From Chloroflexota bacterium (GTDB taxonomy: Bacteria > Chloroflexota > Anaerolineae > UBA4142 > SHND01), in contig JACQWQ010000072.1 in assembly GCA_016209205.1 (NCBI GenBank), positions 18,014 to 82,013 of the forward strand: a stretch of DNA of 64,000 nucleotides. The letters are read 5' to 3'. Below the pieces are notes generated by a model. It did not search any database. It saw only the letters and a program-made list of their open reading frames with translations, and was not told where the DNA came from. Position 1 is the first letter of the stretch. Each line of letters begins with the position of its first letter. The position numbers and the translations under genes are program-made. Positions 2,890 to 49,268 of the stretch are shown one piece after another.

Positions 2890-4959
2890 TCAGGTTATCA
2901 GACGATACCCCAAGCCGCGCACTGTCACCAGCAGCGCGGGATGGGCGGGATCCGGTTCGAGTTTTTCACGCAGTCGTTTCACGAGACTTTCGATTTGATA
3001 ATCGTAGATGTTGCCCTGACTGTCGCGCCAGACCGCGTGGGCAATCTCATCTTTGCTGCACACCTGATTACGCCGCGTCCACAGCAAGCAAAACAACGCG
3101 CGCTGCTCTGCCGAGAGCTGCACAGCGCACCGATTGACCCAGATTTCGCCGGTCAGTTCGTCCATCCACAGGCGCGGAAAATGGCGTGTCTCGAGCGTCG
3201 TGTCGGGATCACGAAACGTAAAGCGCGCGCCCGCGATTTCGATCACATCGCTGTCCTGCAAACGCGCCGGTGTGTGCAATTCGCGATCATTCAGTCGCGT
3301 ACCGTTCCGGCTGCCCAAATCGCGCAATACAAAACCCGCGTCTACGCCCGTCCCCGCCGCGCCCTCTGCGTGACTGATTTCGGCGTGGCGCCGCGAGGCG
3401 CGTGCATCGGCAATGACGATTGCACAATCCGCCACCAGAGAGAACTTGGGACGCAGGTTGACGTCTTCGTACTTTGTCGTGTAGACCCACAGGTGAGCCA
3501 TGCCAAAGCTGTCGTCGGTCATGCGCACGGCAAGCCCATAGTTGGGCTCGCCTTCGAGCCAGCCGCGCACCGCTGGCGTGATGTCCAGATCGAGCCATCC
3601 TTCCGTGTCAACCAAGTTCGTCAAAGTCACGACAGTCGTCGGCTCGAGATCCATGTCCACCTTCGGCTCCAAGCCGGGGCGACTCCACGGCGTCAAATAC
3701 GTAGCGGTTTTGGGATCCCAATCGCGCTTGATGCGATATACGGCGACAGCTGCATTGCGATTGTCTTTGCTCCAGGGGACCGTGTAGACACTCAAGGTCG
3801 CCGTAATCAGCCGAGTCTCTGCGGGCCATTCCGGCAAGGTCAGGCGATAGATAACGCGGTCGGGAGTCGAAGGTCCTTGCAGATGTACCTTGGGGTCCTC
3901 ATAGGCGGCACGGTCGGGCACATCTGGATCAATCCAGGTTTCCTCGATGGCAGGCGCACCTTGGAGCGCGAGCAGCGACGGCGTCGGTTTGGCGGCAGCA
4001 ACACTGCCCGCTGGACTCGAAGCAAAGGGGAGTTGATCCAGACGCCAGGCGGCGAACAGGAGCGCGAGGAACAAAAGGATGACTATCGCTAACGCGAAAG
4101 CGGGGGCGCGCCAACGCGATTGCGGGGCGCGGTTCAGACCATCGCGTAACGCGGCAGCAAACGCGGCAGCGGTAGGATAGCGCGCGTCGGGGTCCTTGGC
4201 GAGCGCGCGCAGGACGACATCTTCCAGGGCTTGAGGCACGGCGGGACGCACCGCGCGCGGCGAAGGCGGCGGAGTATGAATGTGCCGCAGAATGAGCGAG
4301 TACGGCGAATCCGCGCTAAACGGCGGACTGCCCGTGAGCAATTCAAAGAGGATCACGCCGAGCGCGTAAATGTCGCTGCGCGCATCGCCGGGTTTGCCTT
4401 TGCCCTGTTCGGGCGCCATGTACGTCGGCGTGCCGAGCGTGGTCCCTTCGCCGGTATTCAAAGTTTGCTCGACCATCCGCGCCACGCCAAAATCGGTCAA
4501 CACGGGCTGGTCGAGCTGTCCGTTGCGGAGCAGCACATTCGAGGGCTTGACATCACGATGGACGATACCGCGGCTGTGGGCGTGCTCCAGCGCGTCCGCC
4601 AACTTGGCTGTGAGCTGCACCGCGTCCGCGATCTCTAATGGCGCGTCGCGCTCTTGTAGAAATCGTTTGAGCGATGGACCATCAAGCAGCTCCATCACCA
4701 AATAGCCCACGTCGCCGTCGGCGCCTTGATCGAGAATGCGAATGATGTTGGGATGATCGAGCAAGGCAGCCGCTTGCGCTTCCCGGCGAAAGCGCTCGAC
4801 AAATCCTTCGTCGTTCGTGAGGTGGGGATAGAGGACTTTGATGGCAACCTGCGCGCCGCTGGCAGGGTCATAAGCCCTGTAGACTTGCGCCATTGCTCCC
4901 GCGCCAAGCAGCTCGTTCAGCTGGTATCTGCCAACCGTTTTGCCGCTCAAGTCAGCCAT
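2890..4959 (-). CDS. Ser/Thr protein kinase with TM, DNRLRE-like, FHA and OmpR-type winged-helix domains
   Basis: Kinase motifs (GAGAMAQVYRAYD, HRDVKPSNVLL, DFGVAR, APEQ), TM FALAIVILLFLALLFAAW, DNRLRE-like LDITPAVRGWLEGEPNYGLAVR, FHA SRRHAEI..LRDLGSRNGTRLND, C-terminal LVKRLREKLEPDP..LLVTVRGLGYRL. Confidence 0.92.
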   Translation of the reverse strand: MADLSGKTVGRYQLNELLGAGAMAQVYRAYDPASGAQVAIKVLYPHLTNDEGFVERFRREAQAAALLDHPNIIRILDQGADGDVGYLVMELLDGPSLKRFLQERDAPLEIADAVQLTAKLADALEHAHSRGIVHRDVKPSNVLLRNGQLDQPVLTDFGVARMVEQTLNTGEGTTLGTPTYMAPEQGKGKPGDARSDIYALGVILFELLTGSPPFSADSPYSLILRHIHTPPPSPRAVRPAVPQALEDVVLRALAKDPDARYPTAAAFAAALRDGLNRAPQSRWRAPAFALAIVILLFLALLFAAWRLDQLPFASSPAGSVAAAKPTPSLLALQGAPAIEETWIDPDVPDRAAYEDPKVHLQGPSTPDRVIYRLTLPEWPAETRLITATLSVYTVPWSKDNRNAAVAVYRIKRDWDPKTATYLTPWSRPGLEPKVDMDLEPTTVVTLTNLVDTEGWLDLDITPAVRGWLEGEPNYGLAVRMTDDSFGMAHLWVYTTKYEDVNLRPKFSLVADCAIVIADARASRRHAEISHAEGAAGTGVDAGFVLRDLGSRNGTRLNDRELHTPARLQDSDVIEIAGARFTFRDPDTTLETRHFPRLWMDELTGEIWVNRCAVQLSAEQRALFCLLWTRRNQVCSKDEIAHAVWRDSQGNIYDYQIESLVKRLREKLEPDPAHPALLVTVRGLGYRLIT

Positions 4960-5425: not shown

Positions 5426-6019
5426 TTAATCGGTCACATTCACCCAAGCTTTGTAGAGCGTGATGGTGTCGGTTGCGTTTGGAAAGCGCAGCATGACACT
5501 CACGCCCAACGACGAACGCCAGGTGGCTGGACTGAACGTTTTCGAAAAGCAATGATAGGCATTGTCTGCGGGCCAGCTGATGGCATATTGACCGATGCTC
5601 ACATCGTTATCGTACAGGTCCATCCAAATCGGTTTCGTCACCGCGCCGTTGCTGGACTTGGCGCAAAATTCGACCGATTTGATTTTGCGCGCGATGCCTT
5701 CGTGATAGGTCATCAACGGAACGCCGATGTGTACCCACTGGTCCTGGTAGCCAGTGGCTTTGCGTTTTGCTTGTACGCCCCACGCGAACGGACGCCACGT
5801 GCCGAAACCTTTGCGGACTTCGGGCTGCCACATCGTGCCTTGCATGACGATGTGTGTTTCTCCCGGATTCGCAGGTTCAAGCAAGGGCGAATACGCCAGA
5901 TTGGTATTGGACGGATTCTCTGCGGCAAGGGCGGCTGTTCCACCGGGCGGACTGCTTGTCATTACGATTACAAGCAGCGCCGCCAACAGCGCCGTCATGT
6001 AAAGAATTTTGTTTTGCAT
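5426..6019 (-). CDS. Hypothetical secreted protein
   Basis: 197 aa, signal MQNKILYMTALLAALLVIVMTSSPPGGTAALA. Confidence 0.7.
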   Translation of the reverse strand: MQNKILYMTALLAALLVIVMTSSPPGGTAALAAENPSNTNLAYSPLLEPANPGETHIVMQGTMWQPEVRKGFGTWRPFAWGVQAKRKATGYQDQWVHIGVPLMTYHEGIARKIKSVEFCAKSSNGAVTKPIWMDLYDNDVSIGQYAISWPADNAYHCFSKTFSPATWRSSLGVSVMLRFPNATDTITLYKAWVNVTD

Positions 6020-6031
6020 GGTTGTTTGTCC

Positions 6032-6577
6032 TCACTTTCCACGCCGGTGAACTTGCCAGCGCGTGTTCATGATCCGGTCTTCCCATGTCATTGTGTTTTC
6101 ATCCACGACCGTAAAATAGACGGTCCAGCTCAGCGGGCGGGACAACGCGGTGCCCTTGTATTCTTTGGGCTGATAGTCTTGTACGGAAAAGTGAATGAAA
6201 CCATCACCCGCTTGATAAACTCCAACCTCGTACGTCATCAAGTCGCCCCAGCGCACCTGATGTGAATAATTATTATTCCTTTCCAAGATCGTTTCGGCAT
6301 ACACCGTACCGTACTGGGTCGTTTCCGCAGAGGTCCAGATGCCGACCAAATCTATTGCGCCGGGCGCTGTGTCCGGCGGTGGTTCTAGGGGCACATTGCC
6401 CACGGGGGGAAATTGATTTGCTGGCGGATTGTTCTGTGCAGGTAGAGGTTGTTGCTCGGGAGCTTGGGGTTGTGCCGGCGCCGGGGCAGTGGTGTTACAT
6501 GCCGCGCCCAAGACAATTGCCAATGTGCTCGAAACAAGACACCACACTGTGATGCGCGTCAAGAATCTCAGTGTCAT
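6032..6577 (-). CDS. Hypothetical lipoprotein
   Basis: 181 aa, lipobox-like VLGAAC, Pro/Gln-rich linker. Confidence 0.75.
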   Translation of the reverse strand: MTLRFLTRITVWCLVSSTLAIVLGAACNTTAPAPAQPQAPEQQPLPAQNNPPANQFPPVGNVPLEPPPDTAPGAIDLVGIWTSAETTQYGTVYAETILERNNNYSHQVRWGDLMTYEVGVYQAGDGFIHFSVQDYQPKEYKGTALSRPLSWTVYFTVVDENTMTWEDRIMNTRWQVHRRGK

Positions 6578-6600: not shown

Positions 6601-6740
6601 AAACAAAAACCGACTCGATGGGTCTCGAGTCGGTCCATCAACTCTCCGCGTGGCACACGAACATTCAGAGAGTGAAAAGTGGGTATGTCGTGCAGCGTGC
6701 CACTCATTGCTATTATACGTCTCTATGCGGCGCGATTCAA
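6601..6740 (-). promoter_or_regulatory. Promoter plus leader element A with terminator-like hairpin upstream of the lipoprotein operon
   Basis: Minus strand TTGAAT-17-TATAAT (6740-6712), leader stem GTGGCAC/GTGCCAC, then GAGTTGATGGACCGACTCGAGACCCATCGAGTCGGTTTTTGTTT. Confidence 0.75.
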
Positions 6741-6921: not shown

Positions 6922-6944
6922 TAATTTTTGACCGCCTTTAGACC
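6922..6944 (+). repeat. 23-bp dispersed repeat TAATTTTTGACCGCCTTTAGACC, copy 1
   Basis: Identical 23-mer at 9350-9372. Confidence 0.9.
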
Positions 6945-7830: not shown

Positions 7831-9030
7831 TCACCATTTACATCCCCCTTTGAGACGAAAGTAGATGATTCGCTTTTCTTCGCCCGATGGCAGCTTGGAG
7901 CCGGATGCCAAGCGCGGCGTAAAACGGTACTCTCCGGGCAGTGCGTGGACTTTGGACAAATTGGTCCAGTTGTTCAGCGCGGGAATCTCGGTGCCGGTGG
8001 CAGCGCCGCTAAAAACATGGTCAACTCGCCAGCGCGGATGCGTGATGCTGTCGGACTTGCCGCTGTCAATAATAATTTGGCTGACCTTGATGTTCTGGTC
8101 ATAGGTATGGTCCGGAAGCTGTGCCGTCCAGAATTTATACTCGGGCTCATACGTTGCCGTCTGTGAAATCTCTTCTCCTTCTCCCACAACGTAAACGTTC
8201 ACTTCGTCGGTCACTGAATCGCACTCGCCTTGGGTTTCGCCCGTAAACGCGGTGCTTTTCATGACCGGGTCTTTCAATGTCGGATTCGAAATGTCAGGCA
8301 GCTCCTGATAGCCGGTTAGATTTTTGACCCCTAACAACGGCTGAATGTCCACTTGGGTACAATTCGTGGCTTGCCACAGCAGGATGATCGGCGTCTTGGC
8401 GCACTTCCAGACTTTTTTGGGCGCTTGTTTCGCGGACTTGCCATAAAACGAAGAGGTCTTGAGTCCAACGCCAAGCGAGAGAGTAGCAGAGCACGGGATC
8501 TCAGTAGTGAATTGATCACCGACAATTGAAAGCCCTGCCAGCGGTCCATCCGGGATAGTCCACGTGCCGGCATCCGTCTTGAAACGTCCACTGGTCAAAT
8601 CGAGCCAGCCGCGTTCCTGAAATTGAAACGGAATTGGTTGTGCCGCGAATTCTTTGTATTGGGGCAGAAAATCGGGGCGCACGACAAGTCGGATGTTAAG
8701 TGTGATGTATCCGGTTCTAAAGTCGTATTCGCCGCCGCTCCGCCGCAGGTCAAAATCACGCGCCGTGAGCCGTAAATCGTCAACTTCGATGCACTCTAAC
8801 ATGCCATCCCGGTCAATATCGAAAGGAATGAACAGGGGGTCGAGCGCAACCGAAATATCTTTGATGCGCACGCGCGCGATATTTTTGTCCCTTGTCGCCT
8901 CGAAGCGCAACGTCCAAAACCCACTCCCGCGCGCAATCACTCCTCTGCCGCCTTCGGGCGTCGGGTAAACCAAGGCGCGTAAATTCATCGGCAACTCAAG
9001 GGTCAATGGTAAATCTTTTTGGTCTGCCAT
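7831..9030 (-). CDS. Hypothetical protein
   Basis: 399-aa uninterrupted ORF with GGAGGGAG upstream of ATG. Confidence 0.7.
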   Translation of the reverse strand: MADQKDLPLTLELPMNLRALVYPTPEGGRGVIARGSGFWTLRFEATRDKNIARVRIKDISVALDPLFIPFDIDRDGMLECIEVDDLRLTARDFDLRRSGGEYDFRTGYITLNIRLVVRPDFLPQYKEFAAQPIPFQFQERGWLDLTSGRFKTDAGTWTIPDGPLAGLSIVGDQFTTEIPCSATLSLGVGLKTSSFYGKSAKQAPKKVWKCAKTPIILLWQATNCTQVDIQPLLGVKNLTGYQELPDISNPTLKDPVMKSTAFTGETQGECDSVTDEVNVYVVGEGEEISQTATYEPEYKFWTAQLPDHTYDQNIKVSQIIIDSGKSDSITHPRWRVDHVFSGAATGTEIPALNNWTNLSKVHALPGEYRFTPRLASGSKLPSGEEKRIIYFRLKGGCKW

Positions 9031-9146: not shown

Positions 9147-9256
9147 AACAAAAACCGACCCCCCTCGGAGTCGGTTCACCAGCTCGTCACACACTCCTTG
9201 CAGACTGCGGCGCATTTGCAGTTTTGTACATTACAAGGTCGTGCACGGTTATTATA
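9147..9256 (-). promoter_or_regulatory. Leader element B with terminator-like hairpin upstream of 7831-9030
   Basis: Minus strand TATAAT (9256-9251), leader, then GAGCTGGTGAACCGACTCCGAGGGGGGTCGGTTTTTGTTT. Confidence 0.65.
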
Positions 9257-9349: not shown

Positions 9350-9372
9350 TAATTTTTGACCGCCTTTAGACC
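9350..9372 (+). repeat. 23-bp dispersed repeat, copy 2
   Basis: Same 23-mer as 6922-6944. Confidence 0.9.
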
Positions 9373-9525: not shown

Positions 9526-11793
9526 GTGCTGTGGTCAAAGACGACTGCACACGAGTCTTTATGTTTGACGGATAGTTGTCGAGGTATCTCTGTGTTCAAG
9601 CGCATCTCGAATAGCCGATTGAGTCAGACTGCACTGCGCCTGTGGACGCGCGTGTGGGTTTGGCCCCAAATGGGCATTGGTCTCAAGATGACGCTGCTGG
9701 TCATCGTCGGGCTGATTTCGCTCATCGCGCTGTTCGACTATATGGGCACGGCGGCGTTGAACGAAAATATCCGCCACTCGCTGGAAGAGCGCGTCGTCGT
9801 CGCACAAACCGTCGCGCGGCACGTTGACTATATTCTGGCGAACATCGAGCACGCGTTGACGGATGCCGCGCAGCGGGGCGGATTGGACGATCTCGCGCGG
9901 CGTGACGAGGCGCTGCGCGCGGCGTATGCGCGTTTGAGTTTTTTTGGAAATCGCGTTCTGCTCGTTGATCCCAGCAGTCATGTCGTCGCCGCCTATCCCC
10001 CCATCAACGCGGACATCTCGTTTCCCGATGCGCAGCCCGTACAGTTGGCGCTGAACGGGCAAGCGTTCGCCGTGTCGCGTCGCGCGCATCCCGTGGGCGC
10101 AGAAGGACAATCGGCGTTGGCGGCGGCGCCGGTGCGAGATGCCAAGGGCGAAATTGTCGGCGCGCTGGTCGTGACGATTGACTTTTATAATCCCAACGTG
10201 CAAACGTTCACTCACCCGGTCGGTCTGGGCGGCAGCGGCTATTTGGATTTGGTAGACACGGATGGCTTGATTCTGGCGAGTACGCACGCCGAACGCGTGG
10301 GGTTGCCCTCGCGCCAATGCGGAACCGCGTCGCGAGATGCTGGCGTTTGCGCCGGTCACGCGGGCAGAGTGGGGCATCACGGTGCGTCAGGATGAAGAAG
10401 AAGTCCTGGCAACGTCGAATGAATTGCAGCTGCGTATTTTTGCGCTGGGCGCGATCACGCTGTTTGGCGCGCTGGTGCTCGTCTATTTGACGACGCACAG
10501 TGTCATTCAACCCGTGCAAGCGTTGACCTCGGCGGCGCGGCGCATGGCATTAATTGATTTGGATACTCCAATTCCCGCCGAGGGACGCGACGAAATTGGC
10601 GTGCTCTCGCGCGCCTTTGACACCATGCGTTCAAAGCTCAAAGATTCGATGGCGGAAATCCATGCGCTCAATCGCCAGTTGGACGCGCGGGTGCAGGAAC
10701 GCACTGCCGCGCTTGTCGCCGCGCAGCGCCAGGCGCAGGAATCGCGCGATCACTTGCAAACCATTATTGACAGCTTGAGTGACGAACTCGTCGTCATTGA
10801 TCGCGAGTTTCGTGTGATGCGCGTGAACGCCGTGGTCGAGCGGCAGCGTCGCGATGGCGTGGCGTTGATCGGTCTGCCGTGCTATCAGGTAACGCACGGC
10901 GGTGTGCCCTGCCAACCGCCCGATTGTGAATGTCCCTTGCGCGCGGTCTTTCGCACCGGCAAAGCGCGACGGGTCATGCACCGGTTGGGTGAGGACGGCG
11001 GCGTGCGCTACATGGAAGTGATTGCCTCGCCGTTGTTTGGCAGCGATGGACAGGTCAATGGGGTCGTCGAATTGCTGCGCGATGTGACCGAAGAAAAACG
11101 ACTCGCCGTGCAACGTGTGGAGCTGCTGCGGCGCGTGCTGTCCGCGCAAGAGGACGAACGAAAGCGCATTGCGCGCGAGCTGCACGACGAGACGAGCCAA
11201 ACGTTGACCGCGCTGCTGTATGCCCTCGATACCGCCGTGCCTTTGGCGGAAACGCCCGAGGCGCTCGGCTTTATTGAAAAGACGCGTCAATTGACGCAGA
11301 GCGCGTCTGACGGCGTACACAAAATCATGCTCGCGCTGCGCCCGCGCATGCTCGATCAGTTGGGGTTGGTTGCGGCGGTGCGCTTGTATGCCCAATCGCG
11401 CTTGAATGAATTGGGAATTCGGGTGGAGATCACCGAAGCCGGACGCGTGCGACGTTTGAACTCATCGGTCGAAACGGAATTATTCCGCACCCTCCAGGAA
11501 GCCATCAACAATATCGCGCGGCATGCCGCCGCGCAGCACGTACATCTCACCTTTGATTTTCAAACGGATACGCTGGAAATTCGGGTCGAGGATGACGGGG
11601 TAGGGTTTGATGTGGATCAGGTCCCCGCGTCCGCAGACGGGCGTCGTGGTCTCGGGCTGATCAGTATGGAAGAACGTGTAAGCATCGTGGGCGGTGAATT
11701 CGCCCTTCGATGCCGGGGCAAGGGACGACGATCCACATACGCGTGCCAATCAAGGAGAATGGTGATGACGCAAATTCGAGTACTGGTCGTTGA
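9526..11793 (+). CDS. Sensor histidine kinase (HAMP, PAS, NarL-type HisKA_3/HATPase), disrupted by two apparent frameshifts
   Basis: HAMP ...SVIQPVQALTSAARRMALIDLDTPIPAEGRDEIGVLSRAFDTM; ERKRIARELHDETSQTLTALL; GLGLISMEERVSIVGGEF. Two frame changes near 10310-10345 and 11720-11727. Start codon uncertain. Confidence 0.85.
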
Positions 11794-12403
11794 CGATCAT
11801 GCCGTCTTGCGCGAGGGCATTCGCGCGCTGCTTGCGAAACAATCGGACATCACAGTCGTCGGGGAGGCGGGCAGCGGCGCGGAGGCAGTGGAACAAGCGC
11901 AAGCCCTCAAGCCGGATGTCATCCTGATGGATATTTCGATGCCGGGAATTGACGGCATGGAAGCGACACGCCGCATCAAAGCCCACACGCCCGCAGCGCG
12001 CATTCTGGTCTTGACCCAACACGAGGACGAGGAATTGATTGTTCCGATGCTGCAAGCCGGAGCGGCGGGATATATCTTCAAGCGCGCCGGGGGCGCGGAA
12101 TTGGTGGACGCGATTCGCGCCGTACAGCACGAGGGCGCGTACATTCACCCGCGCGTGGCGCGCGCCTTGATGCATCAAGTGAGCCGCGTCGAGGAGCCAT
12201 CCGAACCGCATCTCAGCGAGCGTGAAAAAGAAGTGCTTACCCTAATCGCGCAGGGTTTGACCGGACGCGAGATCGCCGAAAAATTATGCCTGAGCGAAAA
12301 GACCGTCGTCGCCCACCGCACCAGCATCATGGAAAAACTGGACCTGCACCACATCGCAGACCTGGTACGCTATGCAATTCGTGAGGGCTTGGTGAAACCG
12401 TAG
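11765..12403 (+). CDS. LuxR/NarL-type response regulator
   Basis: MTQIRVLVVDDHAVLREGIRALL, DVILMDISMPGIDG, C-terminal HTH LSEREKEVLTLIAQGLTGREIAEKLCLSEKTVVAHRTSIMEKL. Confidence 0.93.
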   Translation: MTQIRVLVVDDHAVLREGIRALLAKQSDITVVGEAGSGAEAVEQAQALKPDVILMDISMPGIDGMEATRRIKAHTPAARILVLTQHEDEELIVPMLQAGAAGYIFKRAGGAELVDAIRAVQHEGAYIHPRVARALMHQVSRVEEPSEPHLSEREKEVLTLIAQGLTGREIAEKLCLSEKTVVAHRTSIMEKLDLHHIADLVRYAIREGLVKP

Positions 12404-47269: not shown

Positions 47270-47524
47270 GTGTCGTTCAAGGTAGGCGACCGCGTACGTT
47301 TCAAGAATCTCGGCAAGTTCAAACGCCGCCCGTTATTTCCCCCTCCCGCCGTCGGCGCGCCGCACGCGTACGAAGGCGAACTCGGCACGGTAGTTCACAT
47401 TCCCGACGAAACGCGCATCGCCGTACGTCCCGATGACAAAGAGCACGCGCACGGTCACGACGCGGGCTGGGTGTTTCGACCGGAAGAATTAGAATTGATT
47501 GACGCGGCGATTCGAGCGTGCTAG
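47270..47524 (+). CDS. Small SH3-like hypothetical protein
   Basis: FKVGDRVRFKNLG...YEGELGTVVHIPDETRIAVRPDD. Confidence 0.65.
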   Translation: MSFKVGDRVRFKNLGKFKRRPLFPPPAVGAPHAYEGELGTVVHIPDETRIAVRPDDKEHAHGHDAGWVFRPEELELIDAAIRAC

Positions 47525-47642
47525 AATTGTTTTGAAACACAGGCAGGCGTCCCCCCAAATCGGACTCGCTGCTTGGCTTTCGCAATGGTCAAGCCGCGAG
47601 TTGATGGACCGACTCGGAATTCCGAGTCGGTTTTTGTTTTTT
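47499..47642 (+). promoter_or_regulatory. Promoter plus leader element C with terminator-like hairpin
   Basis: TTGACG-17-TAGAAT (47499-47527), leader stem GCTTG/CAAGC, then GAGTTGATGGACCGACTCGGAATTCCGAGTCGGTTTTTGTTTTTT. Confidence 0.75.
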
Positions 47643-47678: not shown

Positions 47679-49268
47679 ATGAAAACCTTCATTACCGCGT
47701 TCGCGCGCACATGCGTACTGGTATTATTGACACTCGGCGTGTTTGTGCGGAATGACGTTCGCGCGCAACCTCTACACGCGCCCGACGCATGGACGCAGCA
47801 AGCGAAAGTGACGGCGACGGATCTGGATACGTATGGATGGTTTGGAATTTCTGCGGCGCTCGACGGCGATACACTCGTGATCGGCGCGCACGGCGCGCGG
47901 GTTGACGGCAAGGCGCAGCAAGGCGCGGCGTACGTGTTTGTCAAACCGCCAGGGGGTTGGACCGATGCGACGCAGAGCGCCAAGCTCGTCGCGTCGGGCG
48001 CGGGCAGCGGTGAAAATGCCGGGCAATCGGTAGCCATCAGCGGCGATACCATCGTCATTGGCGCACAAAACGCGGATGGTTGGAAAGGCGTGGCGTACGT
48101 CTTTGTCAAACCGGTGGGAGGTTGGACAGGGACGGTCAATCAAGTCGCGCGGCTCACCGCGTCGGACGCCGTGGTGGAAAGCGGCTTTGGCGTGTCGGTG
48201 GGGATTAGCGGCGATACGACTGTCGTCGGTTCGTATTGGCAAGATGTGAACGGCAACGACAAACAAGGCGCGGCGTACGTGTTCAACAAACCGCTGGGTG
48301 GTTGGAGCGACATGACGGAATCCGCCAAATTGACTGCCTCGAATGGTACGGCAAACGATTGGTTCGGGCAATCGGTCGGCATCAGCGGCGACACGATTTT
48401 GAGCGGCGCGCAGCGGCATGACGTAAGTGGACGCCCGGATCAGGGCGCGGCGTACATTTTTGTGAAACCGACCGGTGGCTGGGCGGGCAACTTGAACGAG
48501 AGCGCGAATCTGGTCGTATCGGATGGAGACACAAGCGACATGTTCGGATTTCCCGTCGCCATGAGCGGCGACACGGCGGCGGTGATTGCGCAAGAAGCGG
48601 AAGGACGCGGCAACGGGTACGTGTTTGTCAAGCCCGCCGCCGGATGGAGCGGGAACGTGACCGAGACCGCGAAACTCCATTCCACCGATGCGGGTGTGAA
48701 CGAGTTGTTTGGTGATTCGGTCGCGACCGATGGAAATACCGTCGTGATTGGTTCGCCGTGGTACGGCAACGGCGCGGCGTTTGTGTTCAAAAAGCCCGGC
48801 GGCGGATGGGCGAACATGACCGAGACCGCGAAATTACTCGCGGCGGACGCCGGCGTGATTGACAATTTCGGCGAATCGGTCGCGGTGGACGGCGATACGA
48901 CTGCGGTGGGCGCGTATTGGGATACGATCAACGGCAAAGTGGCGTGGGGTTCCGCGTATGTGTTCGGTTACAGTGGACCGCCCGCGCCCAATACGCCGAC
49001 GCTGAAAAAACCGGCGAACGGCGCGACGGTGACAACCAAGCGTCCGAAACTCGATTGGACAGATGCGACGAACGCGACCGCGTATCAAGTGGAACTGCGC
49101 GAGAAAAAGAAAACGGGCAAATTGATTGCCAACCCAACCGTCGCGGTTTCCAATTACAAGACGCCCAAGCTCAAGAATTTGAAATACTGGTGGCGCGTGC
49201 GCGCGTCGAACGAAACCGGCTATAGCGCGTGGACGGGCTGGCGAAGTTTTGTGGTGAATGTGCCATAG
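47679..49268 (+). CDS. Secreted FG-GAP-like beta-propeller protein with C-terminal FnIII-like domain
   Basis: Repeats GWFGISAALDGDTLVIGAHG..GKAQQGAAYVFVKPPGGW; C-terminal LKKPANGATVTTKRPKLDWTDATNATAYQVEL. Confidence 0.88.
   Translation: MKTFITAFARTCVLVLLTLGVFVRNDVRAQPLHAPDAWTQQAKVTATDLDTYGWFGISAALDGDTLVIGAHGARVDGKAQQGAAYVFVKPPGGWTDATQSAKLVASGAGSGENAGQSVAISGDTIVIGAQNADGWKGVAYVFVKPVGGWTGTVNQVARLTASDAVVESGFGVSVGISGDTTVVGSYWQDVNGNDKQGAAYVFNKPLGGWSDMTESAKLTASNGTANDWFGQSVGISGDTILSGAQRHDVSGRPDQGAAYIFVKPTGGWAGNLNESANLVVSDGDTSDMFGFPVAMSGDTAAVIAQEAEGRGNGYVFVKPAAGWSGNVTETAKLHSTDAGVNELFGDSVATDGNTVVIGSPWYGNGAAFVFKKPGGGWANMTETAKLLAADAGVIDNFGESVAVDGDTTAVGAYWDTINGKVAWGSAYVFGYSGPPAPNTPTLKKPANGATVTTKRPKLDWTDATNATAYQVELREKKKTGKLIANPTVAVSNYKTPKLKNLKYWWRVRASNETGYSAWTGWRSFVVNVP

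Follow-up and report, generated by a model that had tools for sequence, protein, structure and literature searches.

Our analysis suggests, on balance, that element A, which lies on the minus strand ahead of a putative lipoprotein gene, represents a lineage-restricted type of transcription attenuator, off by default and opened by a factor that holds a GAGUUG/CGACUC hairpin. The element was found in ten copies (A–J), distributed over six species in two families of one order. Each copy combines a strongly covarying terminator with near-invariant arms that could instead form a mutually exclusive alternative hairpin.

Element A and its recurrence in the window

The initial annotation described a minus-strand promoter (TTGAAT-17-TATAAT), a leader with a GTGGCAC/GTGCCAC stem, and a 3' half that can pair either upstream (GAGTTG/CGACTC) or downstream as a terminator. 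All three are present as described: the promoter is near-consensus and both pairings can be formed. The letters at 6644-6627 (minus strand) are GAGTTGATGGACCGACTC. The terminator reads GGACCGACTCGAGACCCATCGAGTCGGTTT TTG and was called independently by a terminator scan; 27 nt separate its T-tract from the ATG of the lipoprotein gene. The main features of A, of its two further copies in the window (i.e. the whole 64,000-nucleotide stretch analysed) and of the genes behind them are as follows.

6922..6942, minus strand: 21-mer TCTAAAGGCGGTCAAAAATTA, common only to the regions upstream of A and B
6712..6740, minus strand: promoter of A, TTGAAT-17-TATAAT, 10/12 consensus matches (TTGAAT at 6740-6735, spacer of 17 nt, TATAAT at 6717-6712)
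6645..6711, minus strand: leader of A from the -10 box to arm 1, 67 nt, with a long irregular hairpin GTGGCAC...GTGCCAC
6627..6644, minus strand: alternative (antiterminator-type) hairpin of A, GAGTTG-ATGGAC-CGACTC
6604..6636, minus strand: intrinsic terminator of A, then TTTTTG; its 5' arm overlaps the 3' arm of the alternative hairpin
6032..6577, minus strand: gene after A, 181-aa putative lipoprotein, AAGGAG ~7 nt before the ATG
5426..6019, minus strand: second gene after A, 197-aa exported protein, starting 12 nt past the lipoprotein gene
9350..9370, minus strand: second copy of the 21-mer TCTAAAGGCGGTCAAAAATTA, upstream of B
9251..9256, minus strand: -10 box TATAAT of B (the -35 is poor)
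9149..9185, minus strand: core of B, GAGCTGGTGAACCGACTC plus terminator
7831..9030, minus strand: gene after B, 399-aa protein of an uncharacterized family
47499..47527, plus strand: promoter of C, TTGACG-17-TAGAAT
47598..47636, plus strand: core of C, GAGTTGATGGACCGACTC plus terminator
47682..49268, plus strand: gene after C, 528-aa exported FG-GAP repeat protein

Written as GAGYTGRTGRACCGACTC, the 18-mer has exactly three occurrences in the window (6627-6644 and 9168-9185 on the minus strand, 47598-47615 on the plus strand), against none expected from 100 shuffles. The promoter pattern TTGA-N19-TANAAT was found three times in the 64 kb (0.2 expected), with the A and C promoters accounting for two of these sites. 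The core had been said to recur at 9147-9256 and 47499-47642; this is true of the ~45-nt 3' part (alternative hairpin and terminator) but not of the leader 5' of it. Likewise, when 1.2–1.9 kb of sequence surrounding each copy was compared by BLAST, unrelated copies had only ~45 nt in common, from arm 1 (GAGTTG) to the T-tract. Among the 11 strong terminators on the 82-kb contig, only those of A, B and C have an ORF close behind, a count that missed copy F owing to its tail. The 21-mer TCTAAAGGCGGTCAAAAATTA has only its two listed occurrences in seven genomes of the genus, and may represent an operator common to both sites or the remains of a duplication. Elsewhere in the window, five 144-bp tandem repeats (51-926) possibly encode a repeat protein.

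Distribution of the element

The initial annotation had proposed a covariance-model search of related genomes, and pattern and model searches did yield seven copies beyond A–C. D and E came from a mismatch search of the window's own genome and its relatives; model R1 (five sequences) added F, which lies 8 kb to the left of the window on that contig; and model R2 (six sequences), run on 298 genomes of the class, added G (G018, E = 3e-7), H (G013, 2e-5), I (G011, 9e-4) and J (G009, 0.015). Copies A, B, C, D and F belong to the own genome, E to a congener (JAKOPZ010000079.1) and G–J to another family of the order. The score of J is marginal, with several false matches expected at such a level over 298 genomes; however, its arms are exact, its promoter reads TTGACA-17-TATAGT and the gene immediately after it encodes a NarL-type regulator. 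A dispersed repeat lies ahead of D, which may be a remnant; the leaders of H and I contain a palindromic insertion. In L249 and L250 (two species), a palindromic insertion (GTAGAGACG...CGTCTCTAC) lies inside the leader stem TGCCTG...CAGGCA, no more than ~100 nt ahead of arm 1, and another small palindrome is located between the terminator and the ribosome-binding site.

An exact-pattern scan of 85,462 species genomes returned copy E (L068) as its only true match; the other 31 matches lack the full motif, and most look like coincidences in coding sequence. Matches in viral contigs (3 and 1) were also judged coincidences, and the plasmids searched contain no copy of the motif. Beyond the five seeds, F was the only convincing R1 match in the genus, the weak remainder being ordinary or TPP-riboswitch terminators. 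The ten-copy set leaves out two candidates as unproven: (i) a weak core relative in the own genome (L138 2014-2058, minus strand, 17.6 bits), just ahead of a possible start codon, which is possibly a further divergent copy; and (ii) a leader with a terminator, immediately upstream of argC in a different family of the class (L254 1501-1541, 29.9 bits with model R3), which has no Rfam match. When 1.93 Mb of the own genome was scanned for promoter–terminator–ORF successions, few comparable arrangements emerged; these included a tRNA-like gene and c-di-GMP-II-GAG riboswitches.

Promoters and leaders

A promoter is recognized in seven of the ten copies: TTGA-N19-TA lies 46–70 nt before arm 1 in five, and TATAAT at 65–67 nt in two more, while shuffled upstream regions contain the promoter pattern at a mean of 0.075%. 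D, H and I have no recognizable promoter at the expected place. The leader sequence between promoter and GAGTTG is unrelated among copies except in B and F, which precede paralogous genes; these two leaders align and both retain GCACGACCTTGT...TGCAAG stems, in which G-C pairs have changed to G-U, while their apical stem is replaced. An irregular hairpin ahead of arm 1 can form in every leader, with modest support in A, B and E (z from -1.4 to -2.0). The leader hairpin of C has a z of -5.2, and arm 1 of C pairs better with the upstream leader.

Terminator and alternative hairpin

Covariation in homologues, the lack of which the initial annotation would have taken as evidence against its reading, is strong in one of the two structures and absent in the other. 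In the ten-sequence alignment, 98.9% of the cells of the terminator stem are paired, and changes on both sides occur at five of its ten pairs (8 cells), a level reached by none of 500 shuffles and not approached by slid controls. The GC-rich hairpin, the U-tract and these compensatory changes identify an intrinsic terminator, and its place between promoter and gene on the same strand is the layout of an attenuator. The alternative hairpin can be formed in all ten copies (96.7% of cells paired) and is conserved without any compensatory change among them, its arms being near-invariant. Changes affect 2/60 cells in arm 1, 2/60 in arm 2, 15/60 in the loop and 11/20 in the distal terminator stem, counts of limited weight because the copies are related and few (n = 10). 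The two changes in arm 1 (B and F) each break a pair of the alternative hairpin, whereas the A to G change in arm 2 (H and I) still allows a G-U pair with arm 1 and leaves its terminator partner paired.

Two explanations that do without an alternative RNA fold bear on these data. Firstly, the copies could be ordinary terminators of the lineage (AACCG...CGGTTTTTGTTT style), non-regulatory (e.g. insulating against upstream transcription) and spread by duplication. Many terminators in the genus, those of TPP riboswitches included, do share a similar stem base and tail, and a simple scan found a comparable alternative stem at ~21% of 255 terminators in the own genome. However, the copies sit between a good promoter and a gene, and arm 1, although not part of the terminator, is as conserved as arm 2 while all the flanks differ. 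This conservation fits an alternative pairing or a recognized hairpin rather than a plain terminator, and makes ordinary terminators an improbable explanation. Secondly, GAGTYG-N6-CGACTC could be a palindromic transcription-factor site in the DNA that overlaps the terminator by chance, as its near-palindromic arms and invariant letters, and the site of D right at a possible -10, would allow. Such an operator is not expected to tolerate the observed variation in spacing (6 nt in eight copies, 7 nt in H and I); it would also have to overlap a covarying terminator in ten of ten copies and to act from 46–70 nt after the -10 box, an unusual position for a repressor site. We therefore regard it as very unlikely.

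The calculated free energy is -2.8 to -8.5 kcal/mol for the alternative hairpin and -13.5 to -22.1 kcal/mol for the terminator. These values point to termination by default, and the weakness of the alternative hairpin means that a stabilizing factor must be assumed.

Genes behind the copies

The genes that follow the copies are diverse. Lipoprotein genes lie behind A and I, an exported carboxylesterase gene behind H and a DUF1254/DUF1214 protein gene behind E, and the gene after F encodes a paralogue (69% identical, same contig) of the 399-aa protein behind B. Signalling genes follow D (MalT/LuxR-like ATPase), G (membrane sensor kinase) and J (NarL-type response regulator). The 181-aa protein behind A has no match in Pfam or NCBIfam, and its gene is probably co-transcribed with the 197-aa gene. 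No counterpart of the proteins behind A, B and E was found in the remaining species of the genus, which suggests that the element accompanies accessory genes. In the window, a sensor kinase and a NarL-type regulator are encoded at 9526-12403 (plus strand), divergent from B; as noted, signalling genes follow D, G and J as well.

The main rival explanation concerns the relation to these genes: each element could be a standalone small RNA of ~100 nt that runs from promoter to terminator, with the downstream gene read by occasional read-through or from its own promoter, and with the conserved GAGUUG stretch before the terminator serving as a base-pairing or protein-binding site. Many small RNAs have the same layout (promoter, structured variable body, conserved segment, strong terminator), the terminator is far stronger than the alternative hairpin, and, within the own genus, promoter and arm are separated by a nearly fixed distance (65–70 nt). 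However, the next gene lies on the same strand in all ten copies, mostly 15–120 nt away, which is unexpected for small RNA genes, and the body is not conserved; an attenuator would likewise yield a terminated, released RNA. We thus consider standalone small RNAs a real but clearly less probable explanation than attenuation.

Comparison with known RNA families

Rfam gave no match on elements A–F (E up to 10) or G–J (E up to 1), although the same library detects TPP and c-di-GMP-II-GAG riboswitches in this genus. Those riboswitches have leaders with terminators of a similar style, and the c-di-GMP-II-GAG ones lie upstream of exported-protein genes; A–J differ from both in having neither a conserved aptamer upstream of the expression platform nor an Rfam match. 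In the own genome (L164, contig C23), two c-di-GMP-II-GAG matches (1749-1852 and 3323-3424, minus strand) with terminator-like hairpins nearby sit ahead of exported-protein genes.

Three further systems are similar in part. T-box leaders (RF00230) also have a conserved segment directly before the terminator and an alternative pairing, but the elements do not match the Rfam model, their leader is only ~60 nt long and their genes are not amino-acid related. LicT/SacY-type RAT elements share a weak, protein-dependent hairpin that overlaps a terminator; the motif here differs in sequence and size, and no CAT_RBD antiterminator protein was found in either genome (positive controls in four reference genomes). 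A similar layout is that of the ANTAR dual-hairpin leaders (EutV, NasR and AmiR targets), where the 3' arm of a short hairpin is the 5' arm of the terminator, between promoter and gene. In ANTAR-type antitermination, a two-component ANTAR regulator would bind hexaloop hairpins and block the terminator. ANTAR proteins above the Pfam cut-off are indeed encoded here (three in the own genome, three in the congener), and the hexaloop of A and C, AUGGAC, has A1 and G4 on a stem that overlaps the terminator. Studied ANTAR systems require a dual hairpin together with loop A1 and G4 (PMC3369931), whereas the upstream hairpin is absent from A–F, where a single hairpin is found, and the second-hairpin rule fits A and C only, G4 being missing in D, E, G and J and A1 in B and F. 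An ANTAR-type target therefore has little probability.

Two peptide-based candidates were rejected. The ATG in GAGTTGATG, the possible start of a leader-peptide attenuator, is CCG, ACG or TCG in F, G and I, and a conserved ELMDRL reading frame through the motif changes downstream and is broken by F. A literature search with a limited set of terms found no description of such a motif, a weak negative.

A proposed model of factor-dependent attenuation

The initial annotation had suggested attenuation or a riboswitch. The exclusive hairpin and terminator in ten copies from six species favour attenuation in general, while the unrelated leaders and the lack of an Rfam match speak against the second option, and a classical metabolite riboswitch appears unlikely from the sequences. 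Given the lack of conservation in the preceding leader, a metabolite aptamer is improbable and a binding protein or RNA is the more likely trigger.

In the proposed mechanism, RNA polymerase would start at the promoter and transcribe a leader of ~60 nt, followed by arm 1 (GAGUUG), arm 2 (CGACUC), arm 3 (GAGUCGG) and the U-tract. By default, arm 2 would pair with arm 3 and transcription would end after ~100 nt, short of the ribosome-binding site. If a trans-acting factor held arm 1 and arm 2 together (6-bp hairpin, loop NYG...), the terminator would not form and the gene would be read. We infer the use of the alternative hairpin, the default-off state and a protein or RNA trigger, as opposed to a metabolite bound by the leader.

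To our knowledge, little is known about RNA-level regulation in uncultured Chloroflexota. Ten copies with strong terminator covariation and an invariant exclusive hairpin define the motif well enough for modelling, searches and tests, and they suggest that genes with nothing else in common have a shared regulator. More tentatively, the copies may represent an undescribed family of factor-dependent attenuators in one Chloroflexota order, which could place accessory surface proteins, together with signalling proteins (sensor kinase, NarL-type and MalT-like regulators), under one RNA-level signal through the invariant GAGUUG/CGRCUC hairpin. If the trigger is a protein, it would belong to an antiterminator family outside the ANTAR and LicT rules.
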